Part shown: positions 278 through 63,614 of the stretch, one piece after another
Numbering within the stretch: the stretch's first letter is position 1
Layout: every line of letters starts with the position of its first letter
Source: Owenia fusiformis
Taxonomy: Eukaryota; Annelida; Polychaeta; Sabellida; Oweniidae
Direction of reading: 5' to 3'
DNA: 64,000 bases
NCBI GenBank assembly: GCA_903813345.2
Contig: CAIIXF020000005.1
Location: forward strand, 41,393,394 to 41,457,393
Notes under the pieces: generated by a model
Databases searched by the model: none
What the model saw: the letters and a program-made list of their open reading frames with translations, nothing else
What the model was told of the DNA's origin: nothing
Translations under genes and position numbers: made by a program

Positions 278-538
278 GCGAGGCACCTATACTGATGCAT
301 GGTGTGTATTGGGTTCACAAGCAACAGGAATATCTACCCTCTCGCAATACTGATATAACACCTGGACTGACCAAAGAGGAATGCCTTAATAGATGCATCA
401 ATATGACCCAGTTTTTGTGTAAATCTGTTGATTACGTAACAAGTAACCAGGAATGTATTCTCAGTAACAGCAACAGGCAGAATGCATCAACCGTCTCAAG
501 TGAGAATATGGAATATTATGAACGAGTTGAATTAGCAG
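278..538 (+). CDS. Gene A exon: PAN/apple domain 1
   Basis: This 261-nt exon has phase 1-1 ends (ag before 278, gt after 538). It encodes a PAN/apple-type module with the four-cysteine layout EEC..RC..LCKS..ECILS and the family signatures YWVHKQ and YYERVEL. It is the most divergent of the five PAN exons of gene A. The 277 bases to its left hold no exon I can recognise. Confidence 0.87.
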
Positions 539-3500
539 GTAAATATATAGTTTGTAACTCCAGTCTTTAGGAAAAATCATGTGTAAACCACGCAGGCTGT
601 TGTCTGGTTTCCCGAAAAAATCTAGAAATTTCTAACAAGTTATAAGATATATTTTGACATGCATCTCAATAATATGTGAGTGTACTAATATATAATATCT
701 GTATTTCAAATGAACATTGTTATTTACAGTTAACCATTCGGTTTCTACAGAAAAACCCAAAGATGTGTCTGAACCAACTACAGGTACTGTTATTTTTAGT
801 GAAAACAGTAAGGAAAAATACTCCAATGATTCTAATATATTTCTATTGCTCAATGTATTTTTTGTTGGAATGTCACTCTATTACCCAATCACTTACATTC
901 AACGCTCACACCATAATAGTGTTAAAATCAGTTTTCATTTCTGAACATATAATTATCTAATTATGCCTTAAAGTTGTTATAATTTGGAAGCTCTAGTTGT
1001 AGCATTTTCTTATTATATATGTAGTATTTTCCTCTAATTATAACCCTATCTATGATTGATTTCCTAAACTGTTTCGTGTAATCACAATTAAAGAAGTGTG
1101 TTTTAGCTGTCATTGGTCAGACGACCAAAGGGAACCAGGCATCGACATCGCTTCCAGGGGTTTATCCCACTCCTGGACTAGGTAAGTGACGGAGGACATA
1201 TTAAGATTTAAGAAATATAATATACCATAGGATGAAATACAATACACAATACAATACAATTTAACACATTGAACAAACTTTGACACTCTAGATTTCTATG
1301 TCCCACGTTCAGAGTATATTCTATATTCGATGTCGAGAGTATTGAAGTTTGTTCTTCGACACATTCTGTTTTTTGCTGTTTTATGTAATGCTCTGATGTG
1401 CCTTCTAGCACCTGCATCTTTATTTCCATTTTCTTAGTTATCATTTGTACTCAAGATCCGATTTGTTGTATCTAGCATGACACCTACAGAATTTAAAGAA
1501 ATAGATACACTATGCATGTGATTTCCAGGCGAGACACCTACAATGAGGCAAGGCGTTTACTGGGTTCACAAGCAAGGGGAATATCTTCCATCCCTCAATG
1601 ATGATAAGACATTTGGCCTGACAATAGAGGAATGTCTCTATAGATGCATGAACTGGGCCGAATTTTTGTGTAAATCTGTCGACTATGTCGTAAGTTTGCA
1701 AGAATGTATCCTCAGTAAGAGCAACCGAGGAATTACATCCACTGGTTCCAATAATGGAATGGAATATTTTGAACGAGTTGAATTACCAGGTACATGTAAA
1801 ATAGTACTATAATTTAAAAATATACAGGGAGTTTCATAAAAAATGCAACCCACCTAACAATGCATATCTTTGTAACAAATAGGGGATGACAAATCTTGTT
1901 GGGAAGAATTAACGTTCGTTCAATGTCCTTTAAGTTGACAAAGTTTCATCACTGTAGCATGTGTATGTGTTCTATTTGCTGGCCATTTAAAGAACCTGCC
2001 CAAATTTCAACCACTTTTCTGAAGACAGACTTGCACACTATGTGTGATATTGTTGACAACACACGTGTTTTTATCGGAACATAATAATGTTTCTTATCCT
2101 GAAAGAAAGTGTGTATGTTGTCAATAATCCTAGAATCATTGCAGAGCTCAAACTATAGATCATACGAAAGATAAGGACATTTACCAGTCTGTCAGAAGAG
2201 AGGTGGTAGGCATTTGTAGCACATTCTTTATATGGGCAGCAAATGGGACATACATAAGCTACATCGATGAAACTTGCTCAACTCAAAGGACATTGAACTA
2301 CCTTTACTTCTGGCCAAAGAGATTGTTCAACCTTCATTGGTTAAAAAGATATGAATTGTAAAGTATGTGGGTTGCATCTTTTTTGAAACACCCTGTATAT
2401 CAAATACAAGTTAGATTTAGATTACTCCTTCTGGGGAAAAACTATTTTGTTAGTAAAACGGGTTTCATTGCCCTCACATTATATCTGATTGTCCGAAATC
2501 AGACTTTCTAAATGTTTATAATGTGATATTAATGAATGTTTGTTGTGTATTGCAATGCCAACATGAATATTTACAGTCAGTTCTACACTAAAACCAACGA
2601 CAGATGCGCCTGTACCAACAACAGAAACGAGAACAGGCCCAAACACAAGTCAAAAAGGTTAGCGATGCAACAAAATATTTCTCAAAATTCAATTTCAAAT
2701 GGGATATAAATGCTTGTGTTCTCGTATTGAGCTAATAAGTCGAAATACAGGTTGCCAAATAGCGTCGACAAGTAGTTACCCCCGATTTTATATCTACTTC
2801 TGTACAACCTTTCAACATTTCAATTCTGAGACTCTAAGAAGAAGAGTACTTGCTATACGATACAACCTGGGTATATCTATGAAACATCCAGATATTAAGC
2901 ACATGCATTTTCTTTTATGTCTTGTATATCATAGCTGGTAATGCTCAGACAACTAAGGAATCACAGACATCGACACCACTACCAGATGTCTACCCTACCC
3001 CTAGATTAGGTAAGCATTGCTTTGATATGTCTTTGGTAAATTGTACTTAAAGGAATTTTGCAAAAGCGTTATCCCCAGTATGGTGTTTAAACTGCTTCTT
3101 TATTCGGTACATTAATATTCCATAAATACCAAATAAAACAAACAATTTACCAAACCTTTACCCATTCTATGTATGTTTTTTATTTTATCGAATGTAATAA
3201 TCTATACAATTTATATTCGCTAAATCGTTTCACTTGTTCTTTGTGTTGGCATTTACATTTGATATTTATACACAGTGTACATGCATTTGTGTGATGCAGC
3301 GAATCTATTTGTTTTCCTCAACGCACGTATGATTTAATTAATTATTTGTACATTCAGTATTTACATTATTTATATTCGGTAAATACCGAATGCCACATTC
3401 AATAAATTTCGTTATTATTCGATACTTTACGAGACTTTCAGTCACGTGATATATTTGAACGATGTAGAATAGCTGTGCGGCTTGCAAATCTCGAGGTCAC

Positions 3501-6500
3501 GTGACAAAATATCGAACAACAACGAAAGTTATCGAATATTACTTTATTGCATTCGGTAAATAGCAAATTAGCTTTCGGTAAAATGCATCAACTATGTCAT
3601 AGAAAAATAAACCATTTGGTAAATATAGGCAAACTTATTTCGGTAGGGTTCAAATAGAAATTCAATATTGTGCCTATAATGTGTTACTCTTAGGAATACC
3701 ATAACAATTTACGCAAAAACATATCATTGAGCGAATGAAATATGTAATTTAATGCACATGGTAGTAAGTGATTGGCTATTTTGAAAACTTAATTTGCTAT
3801 AACAAACATATAAACGTTTATACCAAATGGAAAAATGTTTTAGCGAATATTAATATTTCCTATTCAGAATATATTTGAATTTAATGAATAAAGAAGCAAA
3901 AATAATGCCATACCCCAGAACAGGTTTATTCGATCGTAAACATTAAATTTCAGAAATAAATTCCTTTGTTGTCATTTCAGTATTGACTTATATTTTTTCT
4001 CATAAATTGACAGTTTCTGACAAAGGGAAATCATGACATTTCGACAAGATATGGTTATTATGAGAATGCATCGCATTTTACAGGCGATGAACCTACAATG
4101 ATGCATGGCGTTTATTGGGTTCACAAGCAAGGGGAATATCTTCCATCCCTCAATGATGATAAGACATTTGGCCTGACCATAGAGGAATGTCTCTTTAGAT
4201 GTATGAACTGGGTAGAGTTTCTGTGTAAATCTATCGATTATGTTGCAAGTATGCAAGAATGTATCCTCAGTAAAAGCAACAGAGAAACCAAATCGACTGG
4301 TTCCAATGATGGAATGGAATATTTTGAACGAGTTGAACTACCAGGTACATGTTAAATATATTAAACAAAGAGTGTATTCAAGCAAGAAAACTATTTGGAA
4401 AACGTAATTTCGGGTTGAACATGGTACCCACCACTCTGGTTACCATAGCAACCATATCTCAAGAACCAATCAAAATTGAGGTGCCAAATTTTAATATATA
4501 ATGTATAAATGTATAACACATATGTGTACCAAGTTTCATAGTAAAAGTCCTATTTTCCTTGAAGTTATGGCATCAACTGCAAAACCTTTTTTGAACCACC
4601 TAAGTATATCAAATGCAATTTGGAAGTAGATGAAGGTTACTCACGGGTTTCATTGCCCTCTTCGTATATCTAATTGTCCGAAATACGATTTTCTAAGTGT
4701 TTATAATGCGATATAAATGAATTTATACTGTGTATTGCAATGTCAACATGAATATTTACAGTCAGTTCTACACTAAAACCAACGACAGATGCGCCTGTAC
4801 CAACAACAGAAACGAGAACAGGTAACAAACACAATTTTTCTCAAAAAGGTCATGTGATTCAACAAAATATTTCTCAAAACTCAATTTCAAGTAGGATATA
4901 AATGCTTGTGTTCTAGTATTGGATTGAGCTAATAAGTCCAACTGCAGGTTACCGAATAGCGTCGACAAGTAGTTACTTTCGCTTTATTTCTACTTCTGTA
5001 CAACCTTTCAACATTTCAATTCTGAGCCTCTAAGAAGTAGAGTACTTGCTATACGATACAACCTGAGTATATCTATGAAACATCCAGATAAGCACATGTA
5101 TTTCATACCTACTGAGGTTCTAGGTACATAATGAGCGAGAATATATACTGTATCTAGGGACCGGGATGGATACACGCTGTATCCATCCCGGTCCCGCTCC
5201 TGAAATTTTTTTTCAATTTTTTTTCGCATTTTTTTGAAAATCTCGCAAACTTTTAGACCAAGATAACGTCTAGTACCTTAGTATGTTTTGGAATTTTGGA
5301 TCTTTATAAGGTATGATGTACCTAGAACCTCAGTAGGTATGAAATACATCTGTTATGTACGGTCGGTTTGGATACAGGGTTTATCCCGCGGGAAATATGT
5401 GTATCTTCCTCGGTCCCTGCGGTCCCTCGGGAGATACACATATTTCCCTTGGGATAAACCCTGTATCCAAAACCTCCCAGTACATAACCCTTATGTATTT
5501 TCTTTTATGTCTTGTATATCATAGCTGGTAATGCTCAGACAACTAAGGAGTCACAGACATCGACATCACTACCAGATGTCTACCCTACCCCTAGATTAGG
5601 TAAGCATTGCTTTGATATGTCTTTGGTAGATTTTACTTGTAGGTATTTGTAATTTGGCAAAAAGGTAAATCTCCGGAACAGGTGTATTTGATCGCTAAAA
5701 ACAAAATTCGAACAGTATACATGTATATTTTTATTAAATTAACAGATTCTGACAAAGGAACATTATGACATTTTGACAAGAATGGTTATTATTTGAATGC
5801 ATCGTATTTTACAGGCGATGAACCTATAATGATGCATGGTGTTTATTGGGTTCACAAGCAAGGAGAATATCTCCCGTCTCGCAATGATAATAAGACATTT
5901 GGCCTGACCAAAGAGGAATGTCTCTATAGATGTATGAACTGGGTCGAGTTTCTTTGTAAATCCATTGATTATGTTGAAAGTATGCAAGAATGTATCCTCA
6001 GTAAGAGTAACAGAGGAATTGCATCGACTGGTTCCAATAGTGGAATGGATTATTTTGAACGAGTTGAATTACCAGGTAACGTCAAAACATAGTTTGGAAT
6101 CCTTGTACCCCTTGTGTGATCATTAAAACTATTAAGAATTTACCCTTTTCCTTTATTACAGAAATCACATGAGTATGAATAATTATAACATTTTCGTTTT
6201 TGAATTGATTCTACATCTACAATTTAACCGACAAACGTTACTGGACCAACATGAAAAGGTTATCAGTTTTTGAATCTCAATTTTGTTTAACTTTATTTAC
6301 AATAGAAGTTTATGGCATTTATTTTTAATGGCAAACATAATCAGGCCTTAATAAGAGATGCCAAACATATGGATGGGGGGGGGGGGGGGGGGGGTGCACT
6401 GAATATTTTACATAATGCCTATTATAGTGATTATGATAATCAACGGTAAATACTTTATATAAATCAAGACGATCTTAATTTTAAATGAATACATTTCTGC

Positions 6501-9500
6501 AAATTAAGATGCATGTTTCAATGTCACTTTCAGACGAGACACCTATAAAGATGCATGGTGTTCTTTGGGTTCACAAGCAAGGGGAATATCTTCCATCCCT
6601 CAATGATGATAAGACATTTGGCCTGACCATAGAGGAATGTCTCTATAGATGTACGAACTGGGTCGAATTTTTGTGTAAATCTGTCGACTATGTCGTAAGT
6701 TTGCAAGAATGTATCCTCAGTAAGAGCAACCGAGGAATTACATCCACTGGTTCCAATAATGGAATGGAATATTTTGAACGAGTTGAACTACCAGGTAAAC
6801 ATTTCCCAGATATAGCATTCGGCATCTAGTGTGTCCATGCAAAAATGTCGAATGGAAACTAATTATATAAGTATGTACTATTAATTCTCTAGAACGTTAT
6901 GCCTTATTTCCTAGTGTTTTGCATTGGTCTACATTAATTATTAGAATTAAATTATAACAAGTTATCTTTAATCAAAATATGTATTTTCCTAATTCTTGGC
7001 CTTTCGTTTTCATAAGACATGCAAGTATAAAGCTGAACCACAAATCACTTTCAGTTCCTCCAATATGTCGATACGACGATTGCCTGAACGGTGGAACGTG
7101 TACAGCCCTTAGCAATGGTCTCACAGAATGTGACTGTGCCCATGGTTTCTGGGGCAGATACTGTGAACAAAGTATTGTATCTATTACAAAAGCAGGCATT
7201 TTTAATTTTTCAAAGAATAAAACTGATCAACATTTTATCTAATAAGCAGTCACTCTGAATATACACAAATAAATCGGGGAGTGATATAGTGAATATTTTG
7301 TTTAAATTATTTTGACATTATAATCATTTTAAAGCAAGCAAAAATTAATTACAATGCGTTTCTTTACCAACATTACACCTCATAACCGCATATTTGTGTG
7401 TTTGCATTCATACACTTGCTTATGCCATCTAGGTACCTCGTACAAACCATGTGCGAAGAATCCTTGTCTAAATGGAGGCTTGTGTATTCCTGCCTCGGAC
7501 GACAACTCTGGCTTTTCATGTGATTGCACCAATAACTTCGAGGGCAAAATTTGTGAATTACCACCAGGTAGCTGTACATAATATTTCTTTTGAAAGTGTG
7601 GGGGTAAAGTAAAAGTACGAAATAAAGAAATGTGTACACTAATGAAGGTACACAATGTCTACATTATGTAACGATGCAATTGGTTAATAATTGAAGTTTC
7701 AGATGTAGCAGTAAATGACAAATTGCATCAATCACATTTTCAGGTCGATGTGAATTCCAACTAGGGTGCGAAGGCAGCGATAGGTCTAGATGTCGCTATA
7801 GGGCTGAATTTTATTGTAATCCTGTATATACTGAAGTCAGCGTTCGCATCACAGCATCTCAGTCTCAGAACACGTGGATTGGTATTGGGTTCTCCATGAG
7901 CAAACGCATGGTAGTATAAATGAGTAAATATTTAATGATAAAATTATATGATATATGAGTATATGATAGACAACATATTATACTACTATATTTTTCATTG
8001 AAATGCAAGGTCGAAGTAGGTTTATTATATCTAATTAGAAGAGATGCCAATAAATATTATTAGTTGACCTTGAACAAAGACACTCTCATCCTCTGTACCC
8101 CTGGTATCACTGTTGCTTTCCTGTGGTGTTCTGTTTCTCACTGCATTTTTGTTTTTTTGTAGCCTAACAGTGATGTAATTACTGGTTGGTTAGATGGCGA
8201 CAGGGGTGTTGTTCAAGACAGGTATTAACGACAAACAGTAATGGCATGATATCGATTTACATTGATAAATGTAAATGTAAAAATGAAAAAAATACACGAA
8301 AGAAATCACAAAGTATCACCCAACCAAAGCAATTGTCTATCATGTAAAACAATGTCACAAACAATATGAAAATATTCTGTGATGAAGAACGTCCATAGCT
8401 TCCATGCGTGTTTTGTCTCTTCAAATGTCACCTATTATTCTTTAGCATAATGCGCGTGAATATATATTTTACAGATGGGCTCAGGGGTATTCCCGACCCA
8501 AGCTAGACCGAACCAACAATCTCATCGACACTGCTGTCTTTACCAACGAAGATGGAACGACGACGATGCAATTCAAGCGAGAACTGAACACAACGGACCC
8601 TGAGGACGTCGGGTTAGGCCCCGACTGCATATATATACTATTTCCTGTTGGTGGTGGATACATCGGAGACAACTATAAAATCTCAAAACATTTGCAGACT
8701 CCAAATGTGACTGCTGAAAAAGTTTGCATCACTACATGTCCTGCGTTTAGTATGTTCCTTGCCAATAGTTTACTAGTGCAATTCAAGATTAATTGTCCAG
8801 TATACGGTTTGTCAATATGTTTTGATTACATTTATGATTTCTTCCTTTTGGACCAATCTAGGTGGTAAATGGAGCCCCACTGTTCCCGAGGCTACAACAA
8901 AATCTCCTGGCTCTATAGGGGATAAATGCCCAGTTATAGATGGGCCACCATCGACCTGCGAAAGCCTATGCTCATCCCATGATGACTGCGATTCTAGTCA
9001 TAGATGCTGCTATAATGGTTGTGGATATGAGTGTTTCAGAATTGAAGGTGAGTTAATGAAGTAGTAAATGGTTACGAATGTCTGTCATCATGTGAATTAA
9101 AATTGAAAATCGATCCTTGCAGCTAGTTTTTGTTGCAATATGGTAGGCCTAGGTCTGTAACTATATATTGAGGTGTTTAATTTTGAAAGGTGAAGAGCCT
9201 GACTCCAAAGAAGATAAATGCCCAGCTATTGATGGCCCACCATCCACTTGTGAACGACAGTGTGAATCCCAAGGTGATTGCCCAGCCGAACATATTTGCT
9301 GTTATAATGGATGCAGTAATGAGTGTATGCGACCAGAACAAGAAGGTATACCAACACAGCCAAGGCACATCTAATGATATACAGAGAAACAAAAATAAAA
9401 CTAATCTTTAGAAGACAATATGCTGAGATTTTTTATAAGCTAGAGCAGTACAGATATATTAGTGCTAGAAGCACCAACTGATAATTATAGTAAAATTATA

Positions 9501-10785
9501 TTACAAAATTACAAAGTTGCATTCCCATATTTTTTACAGTTGATGACAAGAAAGGGGAGTGCCCTCGTGTATCTGAGACTCCCGATACATGTACGAATGA
9601 ATGTAGTGTCAATAGTGAGTGTCCAAGTGAGCTGTTATGTTGCTCTAATGGGTGTTCCTTGCAGTGCATGCAGCCAGTCATTGGGAGTACCAACGACACA
9701 GGTGCGAACATCCACATTTTGCCGGATTTTAAGAATATCATTTTAAAATAAATATGTTCCATTTGGTTCACATTTGGTAAATTCATATTGAGAGGTTTAG
9801 AAAAACTGTGTTATGTGCATTAATTAACCAACTTATCTATATTAGACATGTTTTCAGATATGTTCTTACGAGTTTCTGCTAATCTGGTCAGTGGACACAC
9901 AGGACAGGGAATAGATGGAGCACATGTGTCCCTGTATCATATCACGACTATGTTTAATGGAACTCTCATAGCAACGGGGTAAGACAACCTCAACATAGAA
10001 CTACGCTTCAAATACAATGTCATCAAAATATCGTAACTTTCTGTAACTGTAATATTCTTCAATTCAGCTGAAATAATCAAAATGTCTCTAAAAAACATTT
10101 ACTGAAAATTTCATGGAAAATATCAACTATAGATAAAGTTAGAACATAGTGCATTACTTCTGGGACAACCCTCGTACATATGTATAATTAAGGCATTTCT
10201 CTCTTTTGATAGAAAATGCAGTCACTTGTGAAAGGTCTTTAATTTTTTAGCTAAAACTGTAGAGCGTCAGTTTTGTGAGCGAAAATCCTGGGTTCGATTC
10301 CCATGCGGAGCATTGATCTTTATGTCTAGCTGTTACACTGCAGTTCCTCGGACGAGCGTGTCCAGGGTCGTTACACGTTACATACCATTCTTATTTCAGG
10401 ATCACAGATTCTCAAGGTTATATCTACAACCTTTCTGCCAAAGAAAAACTTGTCCCTAGCAAAACATACGCCCTTCATTTTAACACGGAAAATGGATTTG
10501 ACGCGGTTCAATTTCCATTCATTCAGGTGTGTATAAGGCCGAACAGTAGTTATTTACATGAAAATAATTATTTATGCTAACATAGTTATTCACTTTAATG
10601 TAAAAGCAAATATCTACCCACTCTATTACAATGTCTGTACATTTTATTATTAGGTCAACTTTGTAGTAAGAGATGAAGATGAAAATTACCATTTTACCAT
10701 TGTTGCTAGCAGTTTTTCCTACACTGTCCACCACGCCCCACCACCAAGCCGGGAAATGCTTAGACACATGCTAGAACAGCAGTAG
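278..10785 (+). CDS. Gene A: PAN-EGF-DOMON-WAP-TTR-like secreted multidomain protein (5' partial)
   Basis: I read this as one spliced gene whose 5' end, including any signal peptide, lies left of the window. Exons: 278-538, 730-783, 1107-1181, 1529-1789, 2577-2636, 2935-3009, 4084-4344, 4762-4821, 5525-5599, 5815-6075, 6534-6794, 7055-7171, 7433-7567, 7744-7910, 8163-8221, 8475-8749, 8862-9047, 9190-9345, 9540-9701, 9858-9978, 10400-10526, 10654-10785 (stop TAG). The joined frame stays open for about 1,110 codons. Domain order is five PAN/apple with Thr/Ser/Pro linkers, two EGF, one DOMON, three WAP and a C-terminal transthyretin-like domain. PAN, EGF and WAP are disulfide-rich extracellular modules; DOMON families bind haem or sugar. 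Unlike B, C and D it ends right after the TTR-like domain (EQQ-stop) with no Ser-Gly tail. Splicing is inferred from consensus and phase; the frame is strong evidence, the exact isoform is not known. Confidence 0.85.
730..783 (+). CDS. Gene A exon: Thr/Ser-rich linker type 1 (copy a)
   Basis: An 18-codon phase 1-1 exon (VNHSVSTEKPKDVSEPTT) lies between an ag acceptor and a gt donor. It aligns with the 20-codon linkers at 2577 and 4762. It is probably an O-glycosylated spacer after PAN 1. Confidence 0.65.
1107..1181 (+). CDS. Gene A exon: Thr/Ser/Pro linker type 2 (copy a)
   Basis: A 25-codon phase 1-1 exon contains QTTKGNQASTSLPGVYPTP and is followed by a good donor (GTAAGTG). Near-identical exons sit at 2935 and 5525 in the same place relative to their PAN domains. 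Confidence 0.75.
   Translation: MSLVRRPKGTRHRHRFQGFIPLLD
1529..1789 (+). CDS. Gene A exon: PAN/apple domain 2
   Basis: This 261-nt phase 1-1 exon encodes a PAN/apple module with the same four cysteines as PAN 1. It is closest to PAN 3 and PAN 5, sharing the stretch GEYLPSLNDDKTFGLTIEEC. Confidence 0.9.
1825..2395. mobile_element. Tc1/mariner-type MITE in gene A intron
   Basis: The 571-bp element has terminal inverted repeats of about 45-50 bp: the left end starts CAGGGAGTTTCATAAAAAAT and the right end, read on the other strand, starts CAGGGTGTTTCAAAAAAGAT. TA dinucleotides at 1823-1824 and 2396-2397 fit a Tc1/mariner target duplication. The interior has no transposase frame; the ORF at 1896-2084 looks fortuitous. 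Confidence 0.75.
2577..2636 (+). CDS. Gene A exon: linker type 1 (copy b), damaged donor
   Basis: A 20-codon exon (SSTLKPTTDAPVPTTETRT) is identical in sequence to copy c at 4762-4821, but its donor reads CAG|GCCC where copy c has CAG|GTAA. The exon is symmetric, so skipping it would keep the frame. It may be lost from the mature transcript. Confidence 0.5.
2935..3009 (+). CDS. Gene A exon: linker type 2 (copy b)
   Basis: A 25-codon phase 1-1 exon (NAQTTKESQTSTPLPDVYPT) ends in a strong donor GTAAGC. It is nearly identical to 5525-5599. Confidence 0.78.
   Translation: MVMLRQLRNHRHRHHYQMSTLPLD
3070..3922. mobile_element. AT-rich inverted-repeat element in gene A intron
   Basis: The left end (ATCCCCAGTATGG, then CTGCTTCTTTATTC) is an imperfect inverted match to the right end (GAATAAAGAAGCA, then CCATACCCCAGAA). 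The interior repeats ATTCGGTAAATA-like words in both orientations and has two TCACGTGA-like palindromes. The paralogous intron near 5655-5690 lacks it, reading from GGCAAAAAGG almost directly to CCGGAACAGGTG. Exact ends are uncertain. Confidence 0.6.
4084..4344 (+). CDS. Gene A exon: PAN/apple domain 3
   Basis: A 261-nt phase 1-1 exon with a PAN/apple module (GDEPTMMHGVYWVHKQ at the start, YFERVELPG at the end). It begins the third PAN-linker-linker cassette, which resembles cassette 2 in exons and in intron sequence. Confidence 0.9.
4370..4615. repeat. Degenerate MITE-like intron segment
   Basis: It sits where PAN 2's intron carries the 1825-2395 MITE, and its right end (TTTTTTGAACCACC before TAAGTATATCAAATGCAA) looks like a decayed version of that element's end. 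No clear left partner was found. Confidence 0.3.
4762..4821 (+). CDS. Gene A exon: linker type 1 (copy c)
   Basis: A 20-codon Thr/Pro-rich phase 1-1 exon with an intact donor GTAACA; it is the intact counterpart of 2577-2636. Confidence 0.75.
5101..5495. mobile_element. Nested foldback element inserted in gene A intron
   Basis: There are three nested perfect or near-perfect palindromes: a 34-bp perfect inverted repeat pair (5096-5129 with 5316-5349), an 18-bp stem around 5158-5196 with a 3-base loop, and arms of about 45 bp at 5369-5470. The paralogous intron at 2880-2925 reads straight through, so this is an insertion. ATGTA occurs at both edges and may be the target duplication. Confidence 0.7.
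5525..5599 (+). CDS. Gene A exon: linker type 2 (copy c)
   Basis: A 25-codon phase 1-1 exon, nearly identical to 2935-3009, with donor GTAAGC. Confidence 0.78.
   Translation: MVMLRQLRSHRHRHHYQMSTLPLD
5815..6075 (+). CDS. Gene A exon: PAN/apple domain 4
   Basis: A 261-nt phase 1-1 PAN/apple exon (GDEPIMMHGVYWVHKQ ... YFERVELPG). No linker exons follow it before PAN 5. Confidence 0.9.
6374..6394 (+). repeat. Poly-G tract
   Basis: About 20 consecutive G on the plus strand inside the intron between PAN 4 and PAN 5. Length may vary or be mis-assembled. Confidence 0.9.
6534..6794 (+). CDS. Gene A exon: PAN/apple domain 5
   Basis: A 261-nt phase 1-1 PAN/apple exon (DETPIKMHGVLWVHKQ ... YFERVELPG). 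The 5' breakpoint of the 5093-bp tandem duplication falls inside it at 6740; only its last 55 bases are repeated at 11833-11887. Confidence 0.9.
7055..7171 (+). CDS. Gene A exon: EGF-like domain 1
   Basis: A 39-codon phase 1-1 exon with six cysteines in EGF order (ICRYDDCLNGGTC, then CDCAHGFWGRYC). Confidence 0.9.
7433..7567 (+). CDS. Gene A exon: EGF-like domain 2
   Basis: A 45-codon phase 1-1 exon: CAKNPCLNGGLC, then CDCTNNFEGKIC, a standard six-cysteine EGF module. Confidence 0.9.
7744..8749 (+). CDS. Gene A exons: DOMON domain (three exons)
   Basis: Exons 7744-7910, 8163-8221 and 8475-8749 join in phases 1-0-2-1. The protein starts RCEFQLGCEG and carries the DOMON core: WIGIGFSMSKRM, then NSDVITGWLDG, DRWAQGYSRPKLDR, EDGTTTMQFKREL and NTTDPED. 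DOMON domains (dopamine beta-hydroxylase N-terminal family, cytochrome-type DOMON proteins) bind haem or sugars outside the cell. The Met of KRM sits where haem-binding relatives have an axial ligand, but I cannot decide haem binding from this. No B, C or D exon resembles it. It lies between the EGF and WAP exons. Confidence 0.9.
8862..9047 (+). CDS. Gene A exon: WAP domain 1
   Basis: A 62-codon phase 1-1 exon begins with a Ser/Thr/Pro linker, followed by the WAP four-disulfide core DKCPVIDGPPSTC, C.SHDDC, RCCYNGCGYEC. WAP domains commonly inhibit serine proteases or have antimicrobial activity. Confidence 0.92.
9190..9345 (+). CDS. Gene A exon: WAP domain 2
   Basis: A 52-codon phase 1-1 exon with an eight-cysteine WAP core (DKCPAIDGPPSTC ... 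CCYNGCSNEC). It is very close to WAP 1, probably by recent exon duplication. Confidence 0.92.
9540..9701 (+). CDS. Gene A exon: WAP domain 3
   Basis: A 54-codon phase 1-1 exon: GECPRVSETPDTC, C..NSEC, LLCCSNGCSLQC. It is a divergent third WAP core with a short Asn/Thr tail (GSTNDT). Confidence 0.92.
9858..10785 (+). CDS. Gene A exons: transthyretin/HIU-hydrolase-like domain and stop
   Basis: Exons 9858-9978, 10400-10526 and 10654-10785 join in phases 1-2-0 and end in TAG. Exon 1 (LRVSANLVSGHTGQGIDG ... VSLY) fits the first strands of the transthyretin fold. Exon 2 (TDSQGYIYNL, then TYALHFNTENGF) and exon 3 (VNFVVRDEDENYHFTIVASS, then FSYTV) match the later strands, including the family's YH...SPFSYS region. 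At the residues I can align by eye, the first catalytic His of 5-hydroxyisourate hydrolases is Asn, the Arg of the DGR-type motif is Tyr, and the C-terminal YRGS is missing; only the YH His remains. This suggests a non-catalytic domain. The protein ends EMLRHMLEQQ. Family assignment is by pattern recognition and needs a profile search. Confidence 0.82.
10241..10313 (+). ncRNA. tRNA-like sequence (SINE head or tRNA pseudogene) in intron
   Basis: A degenerate A box (TAGCTAAAACTGTAGAGCG) lies about 40 bases before a perfect B box (GGTTCGATTCC, 10291-10301). The anticodon arm does not pair well, so it is not a working tRNA. It lies between the first two TTR-like exons and recurs at 15334-15406 because of the tandem duplication. 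Confidence 0.6.
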
Positions 10786-11217
10786 CACCCAAACATATAT
10801 TTTAAACATAATGTTGCAATGGAAAAAATATATGATGGGTGACAATCAGTTCAACTACCAATAAGATATTAATCAAGATAAAGGTTAACTATGGCTTAGT
10901 TTAAAAAGGTCTATGCGAGCTAAACATGATTAATAATTCGATGCAAGTCTAGAGTAATGCGGAGCAGGGACTGGGAAAAGATATACAGACTGACAGAGAC
11001 AAGGGAATTACATGTAAAAAGGAAGTTGGTTTCCGAGAAATAGAATGTAGACAGAAGGCATACTTAATGAATTCTTGAAATATTTCTCTGGAGGTTGTCT
11101 TTCAAAAGTATCGGCCTGCATGTCTAATGAATGGAGTGGTCTCAACGAAAAGCTGATCATACTCTTTACATTCGTTTAACTGGATATACCTCGCACAAAA
11201 ACGATGACGAAGTTAAA

Positions 11218-11223
11218 AATAAA
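11218..11223 (+). promoter_or_regulatory. Candidate polyadenylation signal of gene A
   Basis: AATAAA occurs 433 bases after the stop; another at 11465-11470 is an alternative. Nothing else distinguishes them. Confidence 0.3.
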
Positions 11224-12147
11224 GTGGAGCAGTTTCAAATCCCATTTTAATTGTTTTGTAAATGATTATCTTGAAATATCCTTTTTTCAAGAAGTTGTTC
11301 ATATAGTGTAGAAGAAACTTTTGTTATTTTTAAACTGAAAAAACAAGGTCCTCTTTTCAGAAAATAAGTAACAATTTCGGGTCCGAATCCATAGTTTTTC
11401 GTGTAAAACAAGAAAGACAGATGTTTGCTTTGTACGTTTCGTTTTATTTGGTACAATGGAATGAAATAAAATAGGATAAATTATAAGTAGACATACTATT
11501 CTATTTTTAACTAGAGCACGTCATATGGTTTCATCATAGAAGGGATGGATAGGAAATATTACAGGAAAATAGACAGGAAACTGATCTCATCCAATTTGTT
11601 TTCTTTTAATCTAGTAGGTAGGCACGCAAAATCCAAATGACTCAACCATATGAATGCTTATTAAATTTTCTTTGGATTTTGCTTCAGTTGCTCTTTACTA
11701 ATCATGTTTATCGCAAAATGGAAAATTATAACTACAAAACAATTTGAAAAAACAATATGGCCATCGAATTAAATGAGGCCATTCAAATGGACGGTATATA
11801 TAGTCTCACAGAATGAAAAGGAACCATGTACAACATCCACTGGTTCCAATAATGGAATGGAATATTTTGAACGAGTTGAACTACCAGGTAAACATTTCCC
11901 AGATATAGCATTCGGCATCTAGTGTGTCCATGCAAAAATGTCGAATGGAAACTAATTATATAAGTATGTACTATTAATTCTCTAGAACGTTATGCCTTAT
12001 TTCCTAGTGTTTTGCATTGGTCTACATTAATTATTAGAATTAAATTATAACAAGTTATCTTTAATCAAAATATGTATTTTCCTAATTCTTGGCCTTTCGT
12101 TTTCATAAGACATGCAAGTATAAAGCTGAACCACAAATCACTTTCAG

Positions 12148-12660
12148 TTCCTCCAATATGTCGATACGACGATTGCCTGAACGGTGGAACGTGTACAGCC
12201 CTTAGCAATGGTCTCACAGAATGTGACTGTGCCCATGGTTTCTGGGGCAGATACTGTGAACAAAGTATTGTATCTATTACAAAAGCAGGCATTTTTAATT
12301 TTTCAAAGAATAAAACTGATCAACATTTTATCTAATAAGCAGTCACTCTGAATATACACAAATAAATCGGGGAGTGATATAGTGAATATTTTGTTTAAAT
12401 TATTTTGACATTATAATCATTTTAAAGCAAGCAAAAATTAATTACAATGCGTTTCTTTACCAACATTACACCTCATAACCGCATATTTGTGTGTTTGCAT
12501 TCATACACTTGCTTATGCCATCTAGGTACCTCGTACAAACCATGTGCGAAGAATCCTTGTCTAAATGGAGGCTTGTGTATTCCTGCCTCGGACGACAACT
12601 CTGGCTTTTCATGTGATTGCACCAATAACTTCGAGGGCAAAATTTGTGAATTACCACCAG
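12148..12660 (+). CDS. Gene A' exons: two EGF-like domains
   Basis: Exons 12148-12264 and 12526-12660, identical to the gene A EGF exons at 7055 and 7433. Confidence 0.75.
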
Positions 12661-12836
12661 GTAGCTGTACATAATATTTCTTTTGAAAGTGTGGGGGTAA
12701 AGTAAAAGTACGAAATAAAGAAATGTGTACACTAATGAAGGTACACAATGTCTACATTATGTAACGATGCAATTGGTTAATAATTGAAGTTTCAGATGTA
12801 GCAGTAAATGACAAATTGCATCAATCACATTTTCAG

Positions 12837-13842
12837 GTCGATGTGAATTCCAACTAGGGTGCGAAGGCAGCGATAGGTCTAGATGTCGCTATAGGGCTGA
12901 ATTTTATTGTAATCCTGTATATACTGAAGTCAGCGTTCGCATCACAGCATCTCAGTCTCAGAACACGTGGATTGGTATTGGGTTCTCCATGAGCAAACGC
13001 ATGGTAGTATAAATGAGTAAATATTTAATGATAAAATTATATGATATATGAGTATATGATAGACAACATATTATACTACTATATTTTTCATTGAAATGCA
13101 AGGTCGAAGTAGGTTTATTATATCTAATTAGAAGAGATGCCAATAAATATTATTAGTTGACCTTGAACAAAGACACTCTCATCCTCTGTACCCCTGGTAT
13201 CACTGTTGCTTTCCTGTGGTGTTCTGTTTCTCACTGCATTTTTGTTTTTTTGTAGCCTAACAGTGATGTAATTACTGGTTGGTTAGATGGCGACAGGGGT
13301 GTTGTTCAAGACAGGTATTAACGACAAACAGTAATGGCATGATATCGATTTACATTGATAAATGTAAATGTAAAAATGAAAAAAATACACGAAAGAAATC
13401 ACAAAGTATCACCCAACCAAAGCAATTGTCTATCATGTAAAACAATGTCACAAACAATATGAAAATATTCTGTGATGAAGAACGTCCATAGCTTCCATGC
13501 GTGTTTTGTCTCTTCAAATGTCACCTATTATTCTTTAGCATAATGCGCGTGAATATATATTTTACAGATGGGCTCAGGGGTATTCCCGACCCAAGCTAGA
13601 CCGAACCAACAATCTCATCGACACTGCTGTCTTTACCAACGAAGATGGAACGACGACGATGCAATTCAAGCGAGAACTGAACACAACGGACCCTGAGGAC
13701 GTCGGGTTAGGCCCCGACTGCATATATATACTATTTCCTGTTGGTGGTGGATACATCGGAGACAACTATAAAATCTCAAAACATTTGCAGACTCCAAATG
13801 TGACTGCTGAAAAAGTTTGCATCACTACATGTCCTGCGTTTA
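12837..13842 (+). CDS. Gene A' exons: DOMON domain
   Basis: Exons 12837-13003, 13256-13314 and 13568-13842, identical to the gene A DOMON exons. Confidence 0.75.
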
Positions 13843-13954
13843 GTATGTTCCTTGCCAATAGTTTACTAGTGCAATTCAAGATTAATTGTCCAGTATACGG
13901 TTTGTCAATATGTTTTGATTACATTTATGATTTCTTCCTTTTGGACCAATCTAG

Positions 13955-14794
13955 GTGGTAAATGGAGCCCCACTGTTCCCGAGGCTACAACAAAATCTCC
14001 TGGCTCTATAGGGGATAAATGCCCAGTTATAGATGGGCCACCATCGACCTGCGAAAGCCTATGCTCATCCCATGATGACTGCGATTCTAGTCATAGATGC
14101 TGCTATAATGGTTGTGGATATGAGTGTTTCAGAATTGAAGGTGAGTTAATGAAGTAGTAAATGGTTACGAATGTCTGTCATCATGTGAATTAAAATTGAA
14201 AATCGATCCTTGCAGCTAGTTTTTGTTGCAATATGGTAGGCCTAGGTCTGTAACTATATATTGAGGTGTTTAATTTTGAAAGGTGAAGAGCCTGACTCCA
14301 AAGAAGATAAATGCCCAGCTATTGATGGCCCACCATCCACTTGTGAACGACAGTGTGAATCCCAAGGTGATTGCCCAGCCGAACATATTTGCTGTTATAA
14401 TGGATGCAGTAATGAGTGTATGCGACCAGAACAAGAAGGTATACCAACACAGCCAAGGCACATCTAATGATATACAGAGAAACAAAAATAAAACTAATCT
14501 TTAGAAGACAATATGCTGAGATTTTTTATAAGCTAGAGCAGTACAGATATATTAGTGCTAGAAGCACCAACTGATAATTATAGTAAAATTATATTACAAA
14601 ATTACAAAGTTGCATTCCCATATTTTTTACAGTTGATGACAAGAAAGGGGAGTGCCCTCGTGTATCTGAGACTCCCGATACATGTACGAATGAATGTAGT
14701 GTCAATAGTGAGTGTCCAAGTGAGCTGTTATGTTGCTCTAATGGGTGTTCCTTGCAGTGCATGCAGCCAGTCATTGGGAGTACCAACGACACAG
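13955..14794 (+). CDS. Gene A' exons: three WAP domains
   Basis: Exons 13955-14140, 14283-14438 and 14633-14794, identical to the gene A WAP exons. Confidence 0.75.
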
Positions 14795-46500: not shown

Positions 46501-49500
46501 AAAAATTGTAATATATTTACGAATTAAAGTCCATATAGACCAATCAAACCTGGTTTATCTGGACAACTAGGACAGCATTCACCATCCTTCACTGTAGGTG
46601 AGGTGTTGTTTTCACATTGCGGCACTTCACACGAAAGTGAGTAACACATTGCCCCTTCTTCCATACAAGTGCAATGTATACATGGATTACTAGTCTCAAA
46701 ATCCCCAAGAGGATATCGCCTTCCTTCATAATCACAAACTGAAAATATACAATGATTAAAAATTAGCTGTCTTACATCTTGAAGCTGCTGAAGTCTTAGG
46801 AAACTGACATGTCCATTGCTGTCTAATGCTACTTGCCAGGTTGGCAAGCCATTCTGTGACCTAATTTGAGTAGGGGCCATATTATATTGAAACTAAGATG
46901 ACACTGTTATACAATGTTGTATAAATAAATATATATATAATATATAAGACCAATAAAATGCCTACTTAAGTGAACGCTCATATTATAACATAACACTATT
47001 AAACACAACATTCAACACTTTTATCATAAGATTAAACTTACACTTGATGTAGAATTACTGCTGATGGTTCTTGAAATATTAACCTAATTTGATAATTCAT
47101 TTTCACTCAAATATTATTCTCAAAAGTAATCAATTTAAGTTCACCTACATGGGGGAGATGGTGTAGGTGTCACCGATGTAGGACAGTGGGGACAACACTT
47201 TCCTGGTGGTACGATTGGTATAGATCCATCACCACACCTTATTATATTGGCACAGCTAACACCCATACAATCTAAATATTTTTGAAAATTACAACTCATA
47301 TTCGTTTTCTTTACAGCATTCGATGTATTTTTCAATTACCAATAAAAATCATTTAAAAAGATCTATTTCATTTATATGTAAAAATGTAATGTGTATTATA
47401 AAGTATAAAGAACACGGGGAGTAAGTCACTCACCTCTCTTTATTAAAATTATATAGGCTACATTGTATAAGAGTATAATAGCGAGATCAATAGTGCAAAA
47501 ATAGTTCATTCATGGAACGAAGCGTGAAACTTTCCACAATATCATCATAATACTATCCCCTTTGATTTAAGAGCCAGAGCCATTTTTGTGGTCCACTAGA
47601 ATGATCAAAAAGTAGTAAGTACCCCCTCCCACCAAATCCCATGGGGGTGGGGAGATATCGAAATATTTTTTTCATAAAAAATTTCTTTGAATATGGTCAT
47701 ACTACAGTTTTAGAGTGCTATTTTCATGGTAAAGAAATTTTGCAAACATAAAAAGATGATTTATCATCAATTTTTATCATTGTTAAAGACTAATCATGGG
47801 CGACGCCCACTTTTCATACCTTGAACATTTAGGTTATTAAATCTCTATCATGGGTTGAACAAATAAATGTAATTCAGTTTTCTGGATGACACCAGATACC
47901 TTTTTGATGTAAGGTGCTATAATTAATCTTTGCATTTGACTTCTTAAAGGCTTAGACCATATCACACCCCTGTTTAGAAGAAAGCAAGCAACAAATGTCC
48001 CAGATCTACAACATGTATCCACTATTCTATGTACATGTATGTCGAGTCTCTATACTCTCCTGAAGAGAACCTATGCTACAGACACAACTGTCCAGAATTT
48101 AGATGATGATGTGCTTAAACAGTTTGATGAATGGTGTGCTGACCAAGTGCCTAAACAGTTTGATGAATGGTGTGCTGACCAACAGAATGTACCAGTCTTC
48201 AAGCTTTGGTTTCTGATTATTTAAATTGAAATACTGTGCCTTGACTATGTAAGGGCTAATAGGACAGGAGAATTTTCCTCTTTATTTCCAGATGGTTTCT
48301 CTTTGATTTTCATAGTTGTTAAAGACTAGTAATAGGCGACGCCCACTTTTCATATGCTGAACATTTAGGCTATTAAACCTCTTTCATGGGTTGAACCGGA
48401 ACCAGAAAGGCCGCCACAGTCACAGTCTGCAGTCTCTAAATTCTCAAGAGAGCCTATACTACATATACAGAAGCTGTCCAGAATCTAGATAATGAAGTGA
48501 TAAACAGTTTGATGAAAAGTGTGCTGACCAACAGAATGTACCAGTCTTTAAGTTTTGCTTTCAGATTATTTGAATCGAAATACTGTGCCTTAACTAAGTG
48601 TAGGCTACTAGAGAGAAAAATTTCGCTCTTTATCTCCAGTCAATTAGCAAGCTTATCACCTGGTTTTTTGTTTTTTGACCTTGTCAATATACTTGCTGAG
48701 TACCAGTTCAGTATATCATCAGAACTCAAAGTTCAAAAATGGATAGCTTTTGGAAAAGTAAAAAATTTGAAATATCTCACTTCCCATGAAATTGCGTCTC
48801 CCCTTATTTCATGCTCCCACAGGTTCAGACACTACACCAGCAAAGGCTGGGAAAATGATTTGGGTGCCAGTGTAGAAAACATTGCCCCAAGCTTCAGATG
48901 CATGCCAAATGCTAGTAAAATGCAGGGATTGTAATGGACATGACACCTAGCTCAGTGATAATGATAATAGAGTGTTGAAGTGCTTAAATGCACAAAATAG
49001 GATATTTGAACTGCAGTTAAGATACCTAATAAGGTAACTTGTATCAATTAGTCAAAGTGCTCTCATTAAAAGTCAAAATAATGTATCATTAATTGTGAAT
49101 TATATATTATTATATCTTTATATCTAAAAGGGATGTGGCCTTTCAATTGACCTACTTAAAGCATTTATCATCTTAACATAAATAACTGACTTATCTTATC
49201 AATTTTATTCAGCCTTATTAGGTAATTTTCCTATTCATAATAGAAGACTCATTAACTTGTATTAACATTATGTATTAACATGTTGATAAAGTGGGTGTCG
49301 CCCTTGGTCAGGCTTTAATAATGAATATCCATGAGAAATACGGATGCAATCTTGAAAATTGTTTTTAAACACTGAAAATAACATACTAAAAATGAATATA
49401 GATCATATTTAAAAAAATCAACAAAAAAATACTTCCCTCCCCCCAGGATTTGATGGGAGGGCACATTTGCAATTTTTCAGATATCATCAGGACACCATTC

Positions 49501-52500
49501 CCTTTGATTTAAGAGCCAGAGCCATTTTTGTGGTTCACTAGAATGACAAAAAAGCACTTGCATCTTTTTGTTGAGCACTGTTGTTTGCAGCTGCATTTTA
49601 CTAGCATTTGGCATGCATCTGAAGCTTGGGGCAATGTTTTCCACACTGGCATCCAAATTAATTTCCCAGCCTTTGTGGTAATGGATTCCCAACTCAATTG
49701 TGAGGGTGAAGCGAGGACTGACATAGGTATAATTGTCTGGAACCAACTTATGCAACTTATGGTGGGATGTTCTCAATTTGAGTTGTTTTCTTTGTGAACA
49801 TTTCTTGTCTTGCAGCATTTACAGTTATTTCATTATTGTCTCTATTGTATAAAATCACAACAAAACGTTCAATAATTGGAATCCAGATATAGTGTCTGAA
49901 CCTGTTGGGGCATGAAATAAGTCGAGACACATAGTCCTACCATGTCAAAGGGCAGCTGCAATTTCATGAGAAGTGAGATATCTCTAATTTTTTACTTTTC
50001 CAAAAGCTATCCATTTTTGAACTTTGAGTTCTGATGATATACTGAACTGGTACTCAGCAAGCATATTGACAAGGTCAAAAAACAAAAAACCAGGTGATAA
50101 GATTGCTAATTGACTGGAGATAAAGAGGGAAATTCCCTCTCTGATAGCCCACACTTAGTTAAGGCACAGTATTTCGATTCAAATAATCGGAAACCAAAAC
50201 TTAAAGACTGGTACATTCTGTTGGTCAGCACACCTTTCATCAAACTGTTTAGGCACTGGGTCAGCACACCATTCATCAAACTGTTTAAGCACATCATCAT
50301 CTAAATTCTGGAAAGTTGTATCTGTAGCATAGGTTCTCTTCCGGAGAAAATAGAGACTCGACATACATGTACATAGAATAGTGGAAACATGTTGTAGATC
50401 TGGGACATTTGTTGCTTGCTTTCTTCTTCTAAACAGGGTTGTGCTATGGTGTAAGCCTTTAAAAAGTCAAATGCTAAGATTAATTATAGCACCTAACATC
50501 AAAAAGGTATCTGGTGTTATCCAGAAAACTGAATTACATTCATTTGTTCAACCCATGATAGAGATTTAATAATCTAAATGTTCAAGGTATGAAAAGTGGG
50601 CGTCGCCCATGATTAGTCTTTAACAATGATGGAAATCAATGATAAATCATCTTGTTTGTGTTTGCAAAATTTCTTTACCATGAAAATAGCACTCTAAAAC
50701 TGTAGTATGACCATATTCAAAGACATTTCTTTATGAAAAAAATATTCCTATATCTCCTCACCCCCATGGGATTTGGTGGGAGGGGGTACTTACTATTTTT
50801 TGATCATTCTAGTGGACCACAAAAATGGCTCTGGCTCTTAAATCAAAGGGAATGGTATTCTGATGATATGTGGAAAGTTTCATGCTTCGTTCCATGAAGG
50901 AACTATTTGCCTGTTTTCTTGCACTATTGATCTCGCTATAAGACTTACTCCCCATGATAAAGAATATGCATTTATCGAAAAGTAATAAGCCAATATAAGT
51001 GCATGCAAAACGTTGATCAAACCTCAATTTAAATGAGTCAAAAAGTGAGTTATTAATTTCAAACACATCAGTTGACTATGTCATGTTAATTACTTTCTCC
51101 ACATTGCTGGCAACATTCGCCGGGTGGTGTGAACAAGGGTTCAAATTCTCGGCACTTTTGCAGGGGACAGTCTACCAAACTGCAGTCTGAAATTATAGTT
51201 AAAATCAGACGTGTTACATGTTAACAAAGTTTGACCATATCTACATTTGAATAGGGCAGACACACGGCGGGCAAAACATATGGTTTTACAGCAAGATATC
51301 CCCACCAAATACAAAACTAATTAATTCAAAAATTAATGCCGGTGGCGAACGGTGAGCCCACGCGGTTAATGTGCCAGCTACGTAAGTCAGATATATGAGC
51401 AAAATCGTATATTGGTACTATAAGTATGAATAACATTAATGACTCCCACCAGTTGGATCAGTTGGTGTTGGAGTATTTGTTGGTCTAGGGGTCCTAGCAG
51501 TTGTTGGTTTGTTAGTGCTTGCTGTTGCTGGTTTGGCTGTGCTAGCTGTTGTTGGTTTGTTAGTGCTAGGTCTTGTTGCTGGTTTGTCAGTGCTTGCTGT
51601 TGCTGGTTTGGCTGTGCTGGCTGTTGTTGGTTTGTTAGTGCTAGGTCTTGTTGCTGGTTTGTCAGTGCTTGCTGTTGGTGGTTTGGCTGTACTAGGTCTT
51701 GCTGTTGTTGGTTTGACTGTGCTAGGTCTTGTTGCTGGTTTGTCAGTGCTTGTTGTTGCTGGTTTGGCTGTACTAGGTCTTGCTGTTGTTGGTTTGACTG
51801 TGCTAGGTCTTGTTGCTGGTTTGTCAGTGCTTGCTGTTGGTGGTTTGGCTGTACTAGGTCTTGCTGTTGTTGGTTTGACTGTGCTAGATCTTGTTGCTGG
51901 TTTGTCAGTGCTTGTTGTTGTTGGTTTGGCTGTACTAGGTATTGCTGTTGTTGGTTTAACTGTACTAGATCTTGCTGTTGTTGGTTTGGCTGTGCTAGCT
52001 GTTGTTGGTTTGTCAGTACTGGCAGTTGTTGGTTTGGCTGTACTAGGTATTGCTGTTGTTGCTTTGTTAGTGCTAGCTGTTGCTGGTTTGGCTGTGCTAG
52101 CTGTTGTTGGTTTGGCTGTACTAGGTCTTGCTGTTGTTGTATTGTTAGTGCTACCTGTTGTTGGTTTGGCTGTGCTAGGTCTTTGTGGGCTTTCAGTGCT
52201 AGGTCCTCTTGTTGGTGTTGATGTAACTTCGGGAGAAGCTAAATGTATAAATCAAATTCTTAATTATGTCATTAATTCACGATTTGAATTTCAATTTCTA
52301 TTGTAGGACAAAATGGATAATGTATGGCAATTAATTGAATAATATCTTATTTTTTTGACCATCAGCAAAATTTTGGTATCATTGCAAAGCCCCAGTACCA
52401 TAGATTTAGGAATCTTCTCTCGGGCTATTGCTATGGAAACGGACGTTATAAATAACGACCATTTTTAACGAGCATTAATAAGCAAAACATGTATTTGCGA

Positions 52501-58617: not shown

Positions 58618-58699
58618 ATGGACACAGTAGGTATGACCAAAATATTGCAATAACTGACTTTATTTACTAATATCAAAAGCTTGAAACTGGAAATAATGT

Positions 58700-59880: not shown

Positions 59881-59883
59881 TCC

Positions 59884-61795: not shown

Positions 61796-61799
61796 TACT

Positions 61800-62220: not shown

Positions 62221-62559
62221 TTACCCAGAACCAGGTCCAGAACCAGATCCAGAATTCAATTCCGATCCAGAACCAGATCCGGAATCCAAGCCAGATCCAG
62301 AACCAGATACGGAATCCAAGCCAGATCCAGAACCAGATCCGGAATCAAATCCAGATCCAGAATCCAAACCAGATTCAGAATCAAATCCAGAATCGATGTC
62401 GTCATTCTTATCATCATCCCATTTTCCAGGCATGTTCTCTAAGATGATGGATATCATCTCGCGACTCATTGGCGGTAGTTGATTTACAGAATAGGAGAAT
62501 CTTCCTGCCACAACCGTAAAGTGGTACATGTCCTTCTGGCCAGTATGTCGGAAAAACAC
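62221..62559 (-). CDS. Gene D last exon: end of TTR-like domain plus short Ser-Gly tail
   Basis: A 339-nt phase 0 exon. After ENMPGKWDDDKNDDIDSG comes DSGSGSGSGLD-type repeat. The repeat array is 168 bases shorter than in B and C. Confidence 0.87.
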   Translation of the reverse strand: MFFRHTGQKDMYHFTVVAGRFSYSVNQLPPMSREMISIILENMPGKWDDDKNDDIDSGFDSESGLDSGSGFDSGSGSGSGLDSVSGSGSGLDSGSGSGSELNSGSGSGPGSG

Positions 62560-63614
62560 CTGAAATGAAATAACATATAAATGCACTTGTACTTGTCGGA
62601 CAATGAAATCAGAGAAGGTTGCATGTAATTGTACATTTTGAATAAGGTCTGTTCGTATTCGTTACTAGTTATCGAAGTGGCTAAATATGTAAATGTGACA
62701 AAAGACAATTGGGGTAATTCAGAATTAAAACAAATGTAGACTAGCCGTGTTGTACAGCGCCACCTAATGTTGTGGTAATTGAAGTGCACTGGCTATACAG
62801 AGTGGGTAATGCACTTTCATAAAATAATTTCAAGATGAGAAAAAATGTCCGTTTTGAGAATCGTTTTGCTTAGTGTTTTGATATATTAGTCTCGAGACAA
62901 TGTGGATGAATATATATATAGATAGAGATGATATAGATAACTGAAGATAAAAATGTGATATTGAACGAACCAATTTGAGCAAAATGAGCAATGGAGAACA
63001 GATATTTTTATTTTGGGTTACTTTGCTTCTTATGTATATTGTCTGTTTGGCAATTTCTTCTATAATTTAATACATGTTTGTACATGAAAATGTTTTCAAA
63101 TGAATGAAGTTGGGAAATAAAACACAAGTACAGTCAATAACGACAGTTGAGCAAGAGAGTTGCAGTCTCATGTGGTGCTTTTAGATGAACACATGTAAAG
63201 CCCACCTGTATAAAAGGGTACTGTACATATTCAAAGGAATACTCAGTGCTGAAATACAGGAAATAGTCTCTGCCCCTCTCCAATGGCTCCTTTGTCCGTA
63301 AAGTAGTAACATATCCCATGTCATCAGTGTTCCTGAAAACAAGCATAAATACATGTATAAGTTACAAGGGTAATTTGCACATTTTCTTAAATATAGAAAT
63401 AAACAAAATAAATATATATTTTATTTGTGATTTGTTAAGCACAATAATTAACAATTGAGACTGCGTACGATCCAATAATGCACTACTCACCCCATACCCA
63501 TTAAGGTATGACCACCTCCCATTTCCATCCTTCCCAATGAGACTGGTACATTTGGCATTCCCATTCCTGTCATTGAATTAACAAGGTTCCCAGTCACTTG
63601 CAGCTTCATAGAGT
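62221..63614 (-). CDS. Gene D: 3' end of a fourth TTR-like paralogue
   Basis: Three exons are in the window: 63614-63491, 63332-63206 and 62559-62221 (stop TAA). They encode the TTR-like domain (MKLQVTGNLVNSMTGMGMPN; NTDDMGYVTTLRTKEPLERG; VFFRHTGQKDMYHFTVVAGR) and a Ser-Gly tail. Phases 1-2-0 match A, B and C. The tail is about half as long as in B and C and ends SGSGPGSG. The first exon is phase 1, so upstream modules are expected beyond the right edge. Confidence 0.85.
63206..63332 (-). CDS. Gene D exon: TTR-like domain, second exon
   Basis: A 127-nt exon (phase 2 to 0), NTDDMGYVTTL ... FLYFSTEYSF ... YPFIQ, nearly identical to B and C. Confidence 0.87.
63491..63614 (-). CDS. Gene D exon: TTR-like domain, first exon
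   Basis: A 124-nt exon (phase 1 to 2), MKLQVTGNLVNSMTGMGMPN then VPVSLGRMEMGGG. Downstream is the ordinary intron, with no minisatellite of the gene C type. Confidence 0.85.

Follow-up and report, generated by a model that had tools for sequence, protein, structure and literature searches.

Modular proteins of Owenia fusiformis ending in a domain of the HIUase/Transthyretin superfamily

A 64,000-nucleotide stretch of the 498 Mb genome of the marine, tube-dwelling annelid Owenia fusiformis (contig C5, positions 41,393,394-41,457,393; hereafter the window) raises the question of what a domain resembling a small metabolic enzyme does at the end of long modular proteins. A preliminary description, made from the sequence alone, proposed that four paralogous units and one partial duplicate end in the same three-exon domain, similar to transthyretin (TTR) and 5-hydroxyisourate (HIU) hydrolase and fused to extracellular modules. 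We read the units from six-frame translation and splice-site gene models. As proposed, gene models and Pfam showed that the four units in the window share this C-terminal domain, and the partial duplicate proved to be an exact tandem copy of 5,093 bp. A fifth unit lies outside the window, with TTR exons at 76,958-76,180 (window numbering), beyond the right end. In a tblastn search at E 0.01 of 224 kb (60 kb to the left, the window and 100 kb to the right), the only TTR exons found were those of units 1-5 and the duplicate. With somewhat better than even confidence, we regard these as secreted modular glycoproteins ending in a dead, HIU-hydrolase-derived structural cap that most likely would join two to four chains at their C-termini.

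Identity, fusion and origin of the C-terminal domain

In all five units the C-terminal domain scored above the PF00576 gathering score of 25.3 bits (46.2 bits for unit 1; 32.5 for unit 2, or 38.2 when scanned alone; 33.6 for unit 3; 35.6 for unit 4; 30.6 for unit 5), demonstrating that it belongs to the PF00576 HIUase/Transthyretin superfamily. Structure prediction gave the unit 1 domain a TTR fold with two four-stranded sheets. When the domain was scanned in isolation, PF00576 was the sole listed family to reach its threshold; a match to PITM1-3 (E 0.19) fell short.

Pfam scans covered the modules of units 1, 2, 3 and 5 and, for unit 4, the TTR domain alone. PAN, EGF, WAP, VWC and DOMON modules were confirmed, in combinations that vary by unit, while the mucin modules of the preliminary description stand as mucin-like exons, recognised by composition and repeats. 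Two features go beyond that description: the Ser-Gly-rich tails of units 2-4, discussed below, and MAM domains (PF00629, hand-joined exons) in units 1 and 5. These scored 83.9 bits in the left flank (window -6898 to -4020), 5′ of the unit 1 PAN exons, and 96.2 bits in the right flank (82941 to 81714), 5′ of the unit 5 PAN exons. The exons outside the TTR domain were modelled as phase 1-1 in 12 of 16 cases in unit 1, 20 of 20 in unit 2 and 4 of 6 in unit 3, with phase agreement between neighbours forced by the models. Extracellular modules on symmetric phase 1-1 exons mark secreted mosaic proteins, and this arrangement was found here; we infer that the proteins are secreted and have a role in a matrix.

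In all five units a module exon precedes the first TTR exon by 0.13 to 1.2 kb, and the latter, like the modules, is readable from a phase-1 acceptor, although phase agreement alone is weak evidence for fusion because the models impose it. Independent support for a C-terminal domain fused to named modules came from a public O. fusiformis annotation ('unnamed protein product, partial'; 759 residues; here P0001), which shares 95% identity with the C-terminal portion of the modelled unit 1 protein. P0001, an annotation rather than a transcript, holds two PAN, two EGF, DOMON, three WAP and TTR in one protein, and the unit 1 model matches it from the fourth PAN onward, apart from mid-DOMON and the start of the TTR domain. 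The fusion is thus shown in a public annotation. The forced phases would also suit TTR exons that form small genes of their own, unspliced to the unrelated PAN/VWC genes beside them; given P0001, and the short distances and phase-1 acceptors in every unit, we consider this scarcely credible.

Where did the domain come from? The same genome carries a stand-alone HIU hydrolase gene on contig C7, whose spliced product scored 132.4 bits against TIGR02962. The gene has two introns, which interrupt the alignment where those of units 1-5 do and in matching phases (2 and 0). Vertebrate transthyretin has introns at equivalent places. In a FastTree analysis of ten sequences, the five fused copies formed one clade, set apart from five HIU hydrolases by a long branch with support 1.000. 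Unit 1 is identical to units 2-5 at only 52 to 56 of 125 positions, which makes the first duplication old. On the simplest reading, the core exons of an HIU-hydrolase gene were captured once and later duplicated in tandem: the three exons, with their introns kept, probably entered the family once and spread in this way. Searching the whole genome with PF00576 returned only two exons of the stand-alone enzyme, but this search read exon by exon and did not list the window's own fused exons, and is therefore uninformative about other fused copies.

The domain has been maintained, as indicated by a ratio of non-synonymous to synonymous substitution rates (dN/dS) of 0.16-0.22 in six of six pairs among units 2-5, i.e. 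purifying selection. What has been maintained is not the enzyme signature. The Owenia HIU hydrolase has the complete set, with His (STHVLD), Arg (SDGRV), His (HHHVP) and YRGS, and the fused domains in all five units have Asn, Tyr, His and no YRGS at these positions. Moreover, the two units scanned against TIGR02962 (unit 1, 47.3 bits; unit 2, 35.3 bits) missed its equivalog cut-off of 87.45 bits. Rapid hydrolysis by the Salmonella transthyretin-like protein (TLP) was abolished by each of H6A, H95A and Y108F (PMC4324301). Signature loss together with the missed cut-off suggests that the fused domains are very probably not HIU hydrolases. Membership of PF00576 and the one catalytic His still present would favour an active secreted HIU hydrolase, or a related hydrolase, fused to matrix proteins. 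Given the His-to-Asn and Arg-to-Tyr changes and the loss of YRGS in all five units, the loss of rapid hydrolysis in the Salmonella TLP mutants, the missed cut-off and the normal-looking enzyme gene still in the genome, we hold such an activity to be very improbable. The domain would instead have lost HIU-hydrolase chemistry and become a non-enzymatic structural cap.

Possible functions of the terminal domain

If the domain is a structural cap, it may act by oligomerising. Transthyretin is a homotetramer (PMC6694296), and recombinant TLPs of Arabidopsis, C. elegans, E. coli and Salmonella are reported to be tetramers like it (PMC4324301). By analogy with these homotetramers, we infer that the fused domain oligomerises and that the cap would join two to four long chains. 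None of the five copies of the domain contains cysteine, against 52 in the remainder of P0001, and chains would therefore associate non-covalently if at all. Alternatively, the domain could be a folded monomeric cap that protects or ends the chain, or binds another matrix protein. In favour of a monomer, the EF region has four residues fewer than that of the enzymes and the predicted structure shows no helix there; against it, transthyretin and the TLPs of four species form tetramers. We regard a monomer as a serious alternative of lower probability.

The proposed cap is followed by different C-terminal extensions. Exon 3 continues into Ser-Gly-Asp tails with 31 Ser-Gly pairs in unit 2, 28 in unit 3 and 18 in unit 4, while the tail of unit 5 is an Asp/Lys one and unit 1 ends shortly past the domain. 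Ser-Gly repeats by acidic residues are typical glycosaminoglycan attachment sites, and units 2-4 would be proteoglycan-like if their tails carry such chains. Together, the proteins would begin with PAN modules (with MAM farther upstream in units 1 and 5), continue through a variable EGF/VWC/WAP/DOMON/mucin-like middle and end in the TTR domain, in units 2-5 with Ser-Gly-rich or acidic tails past the cap; the setting could be mucus, the tube lining or another extracellular matrix. A more specific form of this proposal, which we put forward tentatively and think rather less probable than not, is that a dead HIU hydrolase, brought into annelid secreted proteins by exon shuffling, became a new cysteine-free oligomerisation hub, with cap tetramers holding together four PAN/VWC/mucin arms as a star-shaped particle of matrix or mucus whose tails possibly bear glycosaminoglycans.

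Among units 2-5, 25 of 26 inner-sheet positions are invariant compared with 19 of 32 in the outer sheet (P = 0.0014). The inner sheet corresponds to strands D, A, G and H, which we take to be the channel-lining sheet of transthyretin. Exon 3 encodes strands G and H, and the inner-sheet excess is confounded by the low divergence of this exon. Conservation of G and H was therefore rejected as proof of an interface, since silent changes in exon 3 are also few. Indeed, only 2 to 6 of 123 bases of TTR exon 3 (17351-17857, 43035-43541 and 62221-62559) differ among units 2-5, compared with 18 to 27 identities, ungapped, in the last 60 bases of the preceding intron; this contrast points to gene conversion, or to selection acting on the DNA itself. 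In favour of an assembly role, exon 1 of units 2-5 has almost only silent changes in strand A and the AB loop (1 of 9 variable codons non-silent), unlike strands B and C (8 of 13; P = 0.031).

The inner-sheet contrast would also favour the TTR domain being a secreted small-ligand carrier or receptor (for iodinated tyrosines, pigments or lipids) that works through the tetramer channel, with the other modules anchoring it to the matrix. There is precedent, as the transthyretin branch is described as having made a hormone carrier of the same fold by few changes (PMC4324301). The sheet contrast carries the exon 3 confound here too, and the position aligned with human transthyretin Thr119, reported to be key to opening the hormone channel (PMC4324301), is occupied by His in unit 1 and by Asn in the other four units. 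With position 119 not Thr, a vertebrate-type thyroid-hormone carrier is unlikely from the alignment, and we also view a ligand carrier of any kind as an unlikely alternative, less so than an active hydrolase.

Several observations weigh against the proposal of a dead cap that joins secreted chains. When unit 1 is included, the sheet contrast falls to 15 of 26 versus 11 of 32 invariant positions and is not significant (P = 0.11). The synonymous rate (dS) among units 2-5 is 0.08-0.17 in exon 3 and 0.17-0.87 in exon 1 (for exon 2 it is 0.08-0.29 in three pairs, and the three that include unit 5 gave no computable value), and the inner-sheet excess may be partly due to gene conversion. One catalytic His is retained in the fused domains, and the predicted unit 1 structure includes a C-terminal helix in blocks of low values (predicted local distance difference test, pLDDT, 53-67). 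Upstream, the MAM exons could not be joined to the PAN exons in the gene models, the unit 5 model has an in-frame stop at the junction of MAM exon and linker, and a scan of units 1 and 5 for signal-peptide exons found one candidate upstream of unit 1 and none for unit 5.

Layout of the units and their surroundings

Unit 1 lies on the plus strand and runs in the order five PAN, two EGF, DOMON, three WAP and TTR, with every module type found by Pfam. The PAN exons (278-538, 1529-1789, 4014-4344, 5815-6075 and 6534-6794) come from the gene model, PF00024 matches in five stretches and tblastn. The gene model, Pfam and P0001 agree on the two EGF exons (7055-7171 and 7433-7567), the DOMON exons (7744-7910 and 8446-8749, with the middle piece of P0001 unplaced) and the three WAP exons (8862-9047, 9190-9345 and 9540-9701). 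The TTR exons (9858-9978, 10400-10526 and 10654-10785, including the stop; gene model and Pfam) correspond to P0001 residues 635-759. The tandem copy (11833-16925, plus strand) repeats 6740-11832 at 100% identity including introns, so that EGF, DOMON, WAP and TTR recur and the copy starts within a PAN exon. With no differences over 5 kb of introns and exons, the repeat is either very recent or an assembly artefact.

Unit 2, on the minus strand, comprises two PAN exons, a mucin-like repeat exon, VWC, WAP and EGF-like exons in recurring order, and TTR. The PAN exons (32433-32170 and 30969-30706) were assigned by gene model and Pfam, and the Thr/Ser/His-rich mucin-like exon (29060-29644) by its 63-bp repeats, composition and gene model. 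Between 19686 and 28721, the gene model, Pfam and tblastn place three WAP, several VWC and the EGF-like exons; the latter were absent from Pfam matches at E 0.01 and were identified by sequence and tblastn. Further Pfam matches (VWC2L, TILa and pacifastin) were sub-threshold only. The TTR exons (gene model and Pfam) are at 19559-19436, 19315-19189 and 17857-17351, the last continuing into the Ser-Gly-Asp tail. Two pieces resembling a mariner-type transposase (by eye) lie on opposite strands at 36405-36907, next to an inverted-repeat pair. No Rfam match reached its gathering score.

Unit 3, also on the minus strand, has two PAN exons (56098-55835 and 54226-53963; gene model and Pfam), a mucin-like Pro/Ser/Thr/Lys repeat exon (51439-52238; composition, repeats and gene model), VWC and half-VWC exons (about 51187-51101, 47308-47149 and 46738-46550; gene model, Pfam and tblastn) and TTR exons with a Ser-Gly tail (45344-45221, 44304-44178 and 43541-43035; gene model and Pfam), with PAN and VWC confirmed by Pfam. 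Between two of its half-VWC exons lies a large inverted repeat (47750-50656), 94-95% complementary in three blocks and probably a mobile element. The first TTR exon of unit 3 is present in seven tandem partial copies on the minus strand (44521-45339, spacing 122-125 bp; tblastn); the exon is complete in just one of these, the first to be read. The gene of the stand-alone HIU hydrolase contains five tandem partial copies of its own homologous exon (L004 320-796, spacing 99-105 bp), with the acceptor region present four times; exon arrays of this kind thus occur in two unlinked members of the family.

The minus-strand TTR exons of unit 4 (63614-63491, 63332-63206 and 62559-62221, with a Ser-Gly tail; gene model, tblastn and Pfam) lie at the right end of the window; past that end follow two PAN exons and the mucin-like, EGF-like and VWC exons of this unit. 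In unit 5, Pfam confirms PAN, three EGF and WAP ahead of TTR.

Related systems and meaning of the fusion

Modular proteins of mucus and matrix are built from VWC, EGF, PAN and WAP modules and mucin repeats. The Owenia units share these modules, as well as mostly phase 1-1 exons and Thr/Ser-rich stretches, and we know of no mucus or matrix modular protein with a terminal TTR-fold cap. HIU hydrolase (TIGR02962; PDB 2h1x, which we take to be the zebrafish enzyme, and 2g2n of E. coli) shares superfamily, fold and intron positions and phases with the fused domains and provides their closest PDB sequences. Unlike it, the fused domains are part of multidomain, secreted-type proteins, have lost the signature His, Arg and YRGS, and carry a C-terminal extension. 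As the best PDB matches are HIUases, no special kinship to transthyretin was seen. The likeness to vertebrate transthyretin lies in its history as a former HIUase that lost its enzyme activity and is used outside cells (PMC4324301); the Owenia domains differ in not standing alone and in lacking Thr at position 119. The earlier statement that transthyretin and HIU hydrolase are normally stand-alone proteins needs qualifying for plants, in which TTL/allantoin synthase unites OHCU decarboxylase with HIU hydrolase (PMC4324301; PDB 5z5m). There too a TTR fold is joined to another domain, but within a bifunctional peroxisomal enzyme, in contrast to the extracellular modules and apparently dead domain here.

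In agreement with the view that no such family has been described, literature and protein searches showed none among the matches listed. The protein search covered 5.8 billion sequences and required exact shared 5-residue words. With the C-terminal part of unit 1 as query, P0001 was the sole TTR-containing match (two matches of 1,850 candidates); the other was a nematode DOMON/TIL protein without PF00576 among its listed domains. For the TTR region of unit 2, none of 427 candidates (about 783-2,492 residues) was a relative at E 0.001; P0001, at 759 residues, was too short to be among them. In a further search P0001 was again the sole match, 1 of 97 candidates. No description of the fusion was among the literature matches listed, from mostly open-access coverage without bioRxiv preprints. 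Given the need for exact words and the partial literature coverage, other animals may have the fusion too. Fold and modules are each known; their combination here, and the role proposed for it, are undescribed in the literature and proteins searched.

The transthyretin fold is a textbook example of how an enzyme became a hormone carrier. If exons of the same enzyme joined extracellular modules in a separate lineage, this would be an independent and testable case of a metabolic enzyme becoming a structural part, and the ordinary enzyme gene in the same genome allows comparison. If the cap oligomerises, this suggests branched matrix or mucus polymers formed without C-terminal disulphide linkage and, should the star-shaped hub be true, would add a third role for the transthyretin fold to those of enzyme and hormone carrier.

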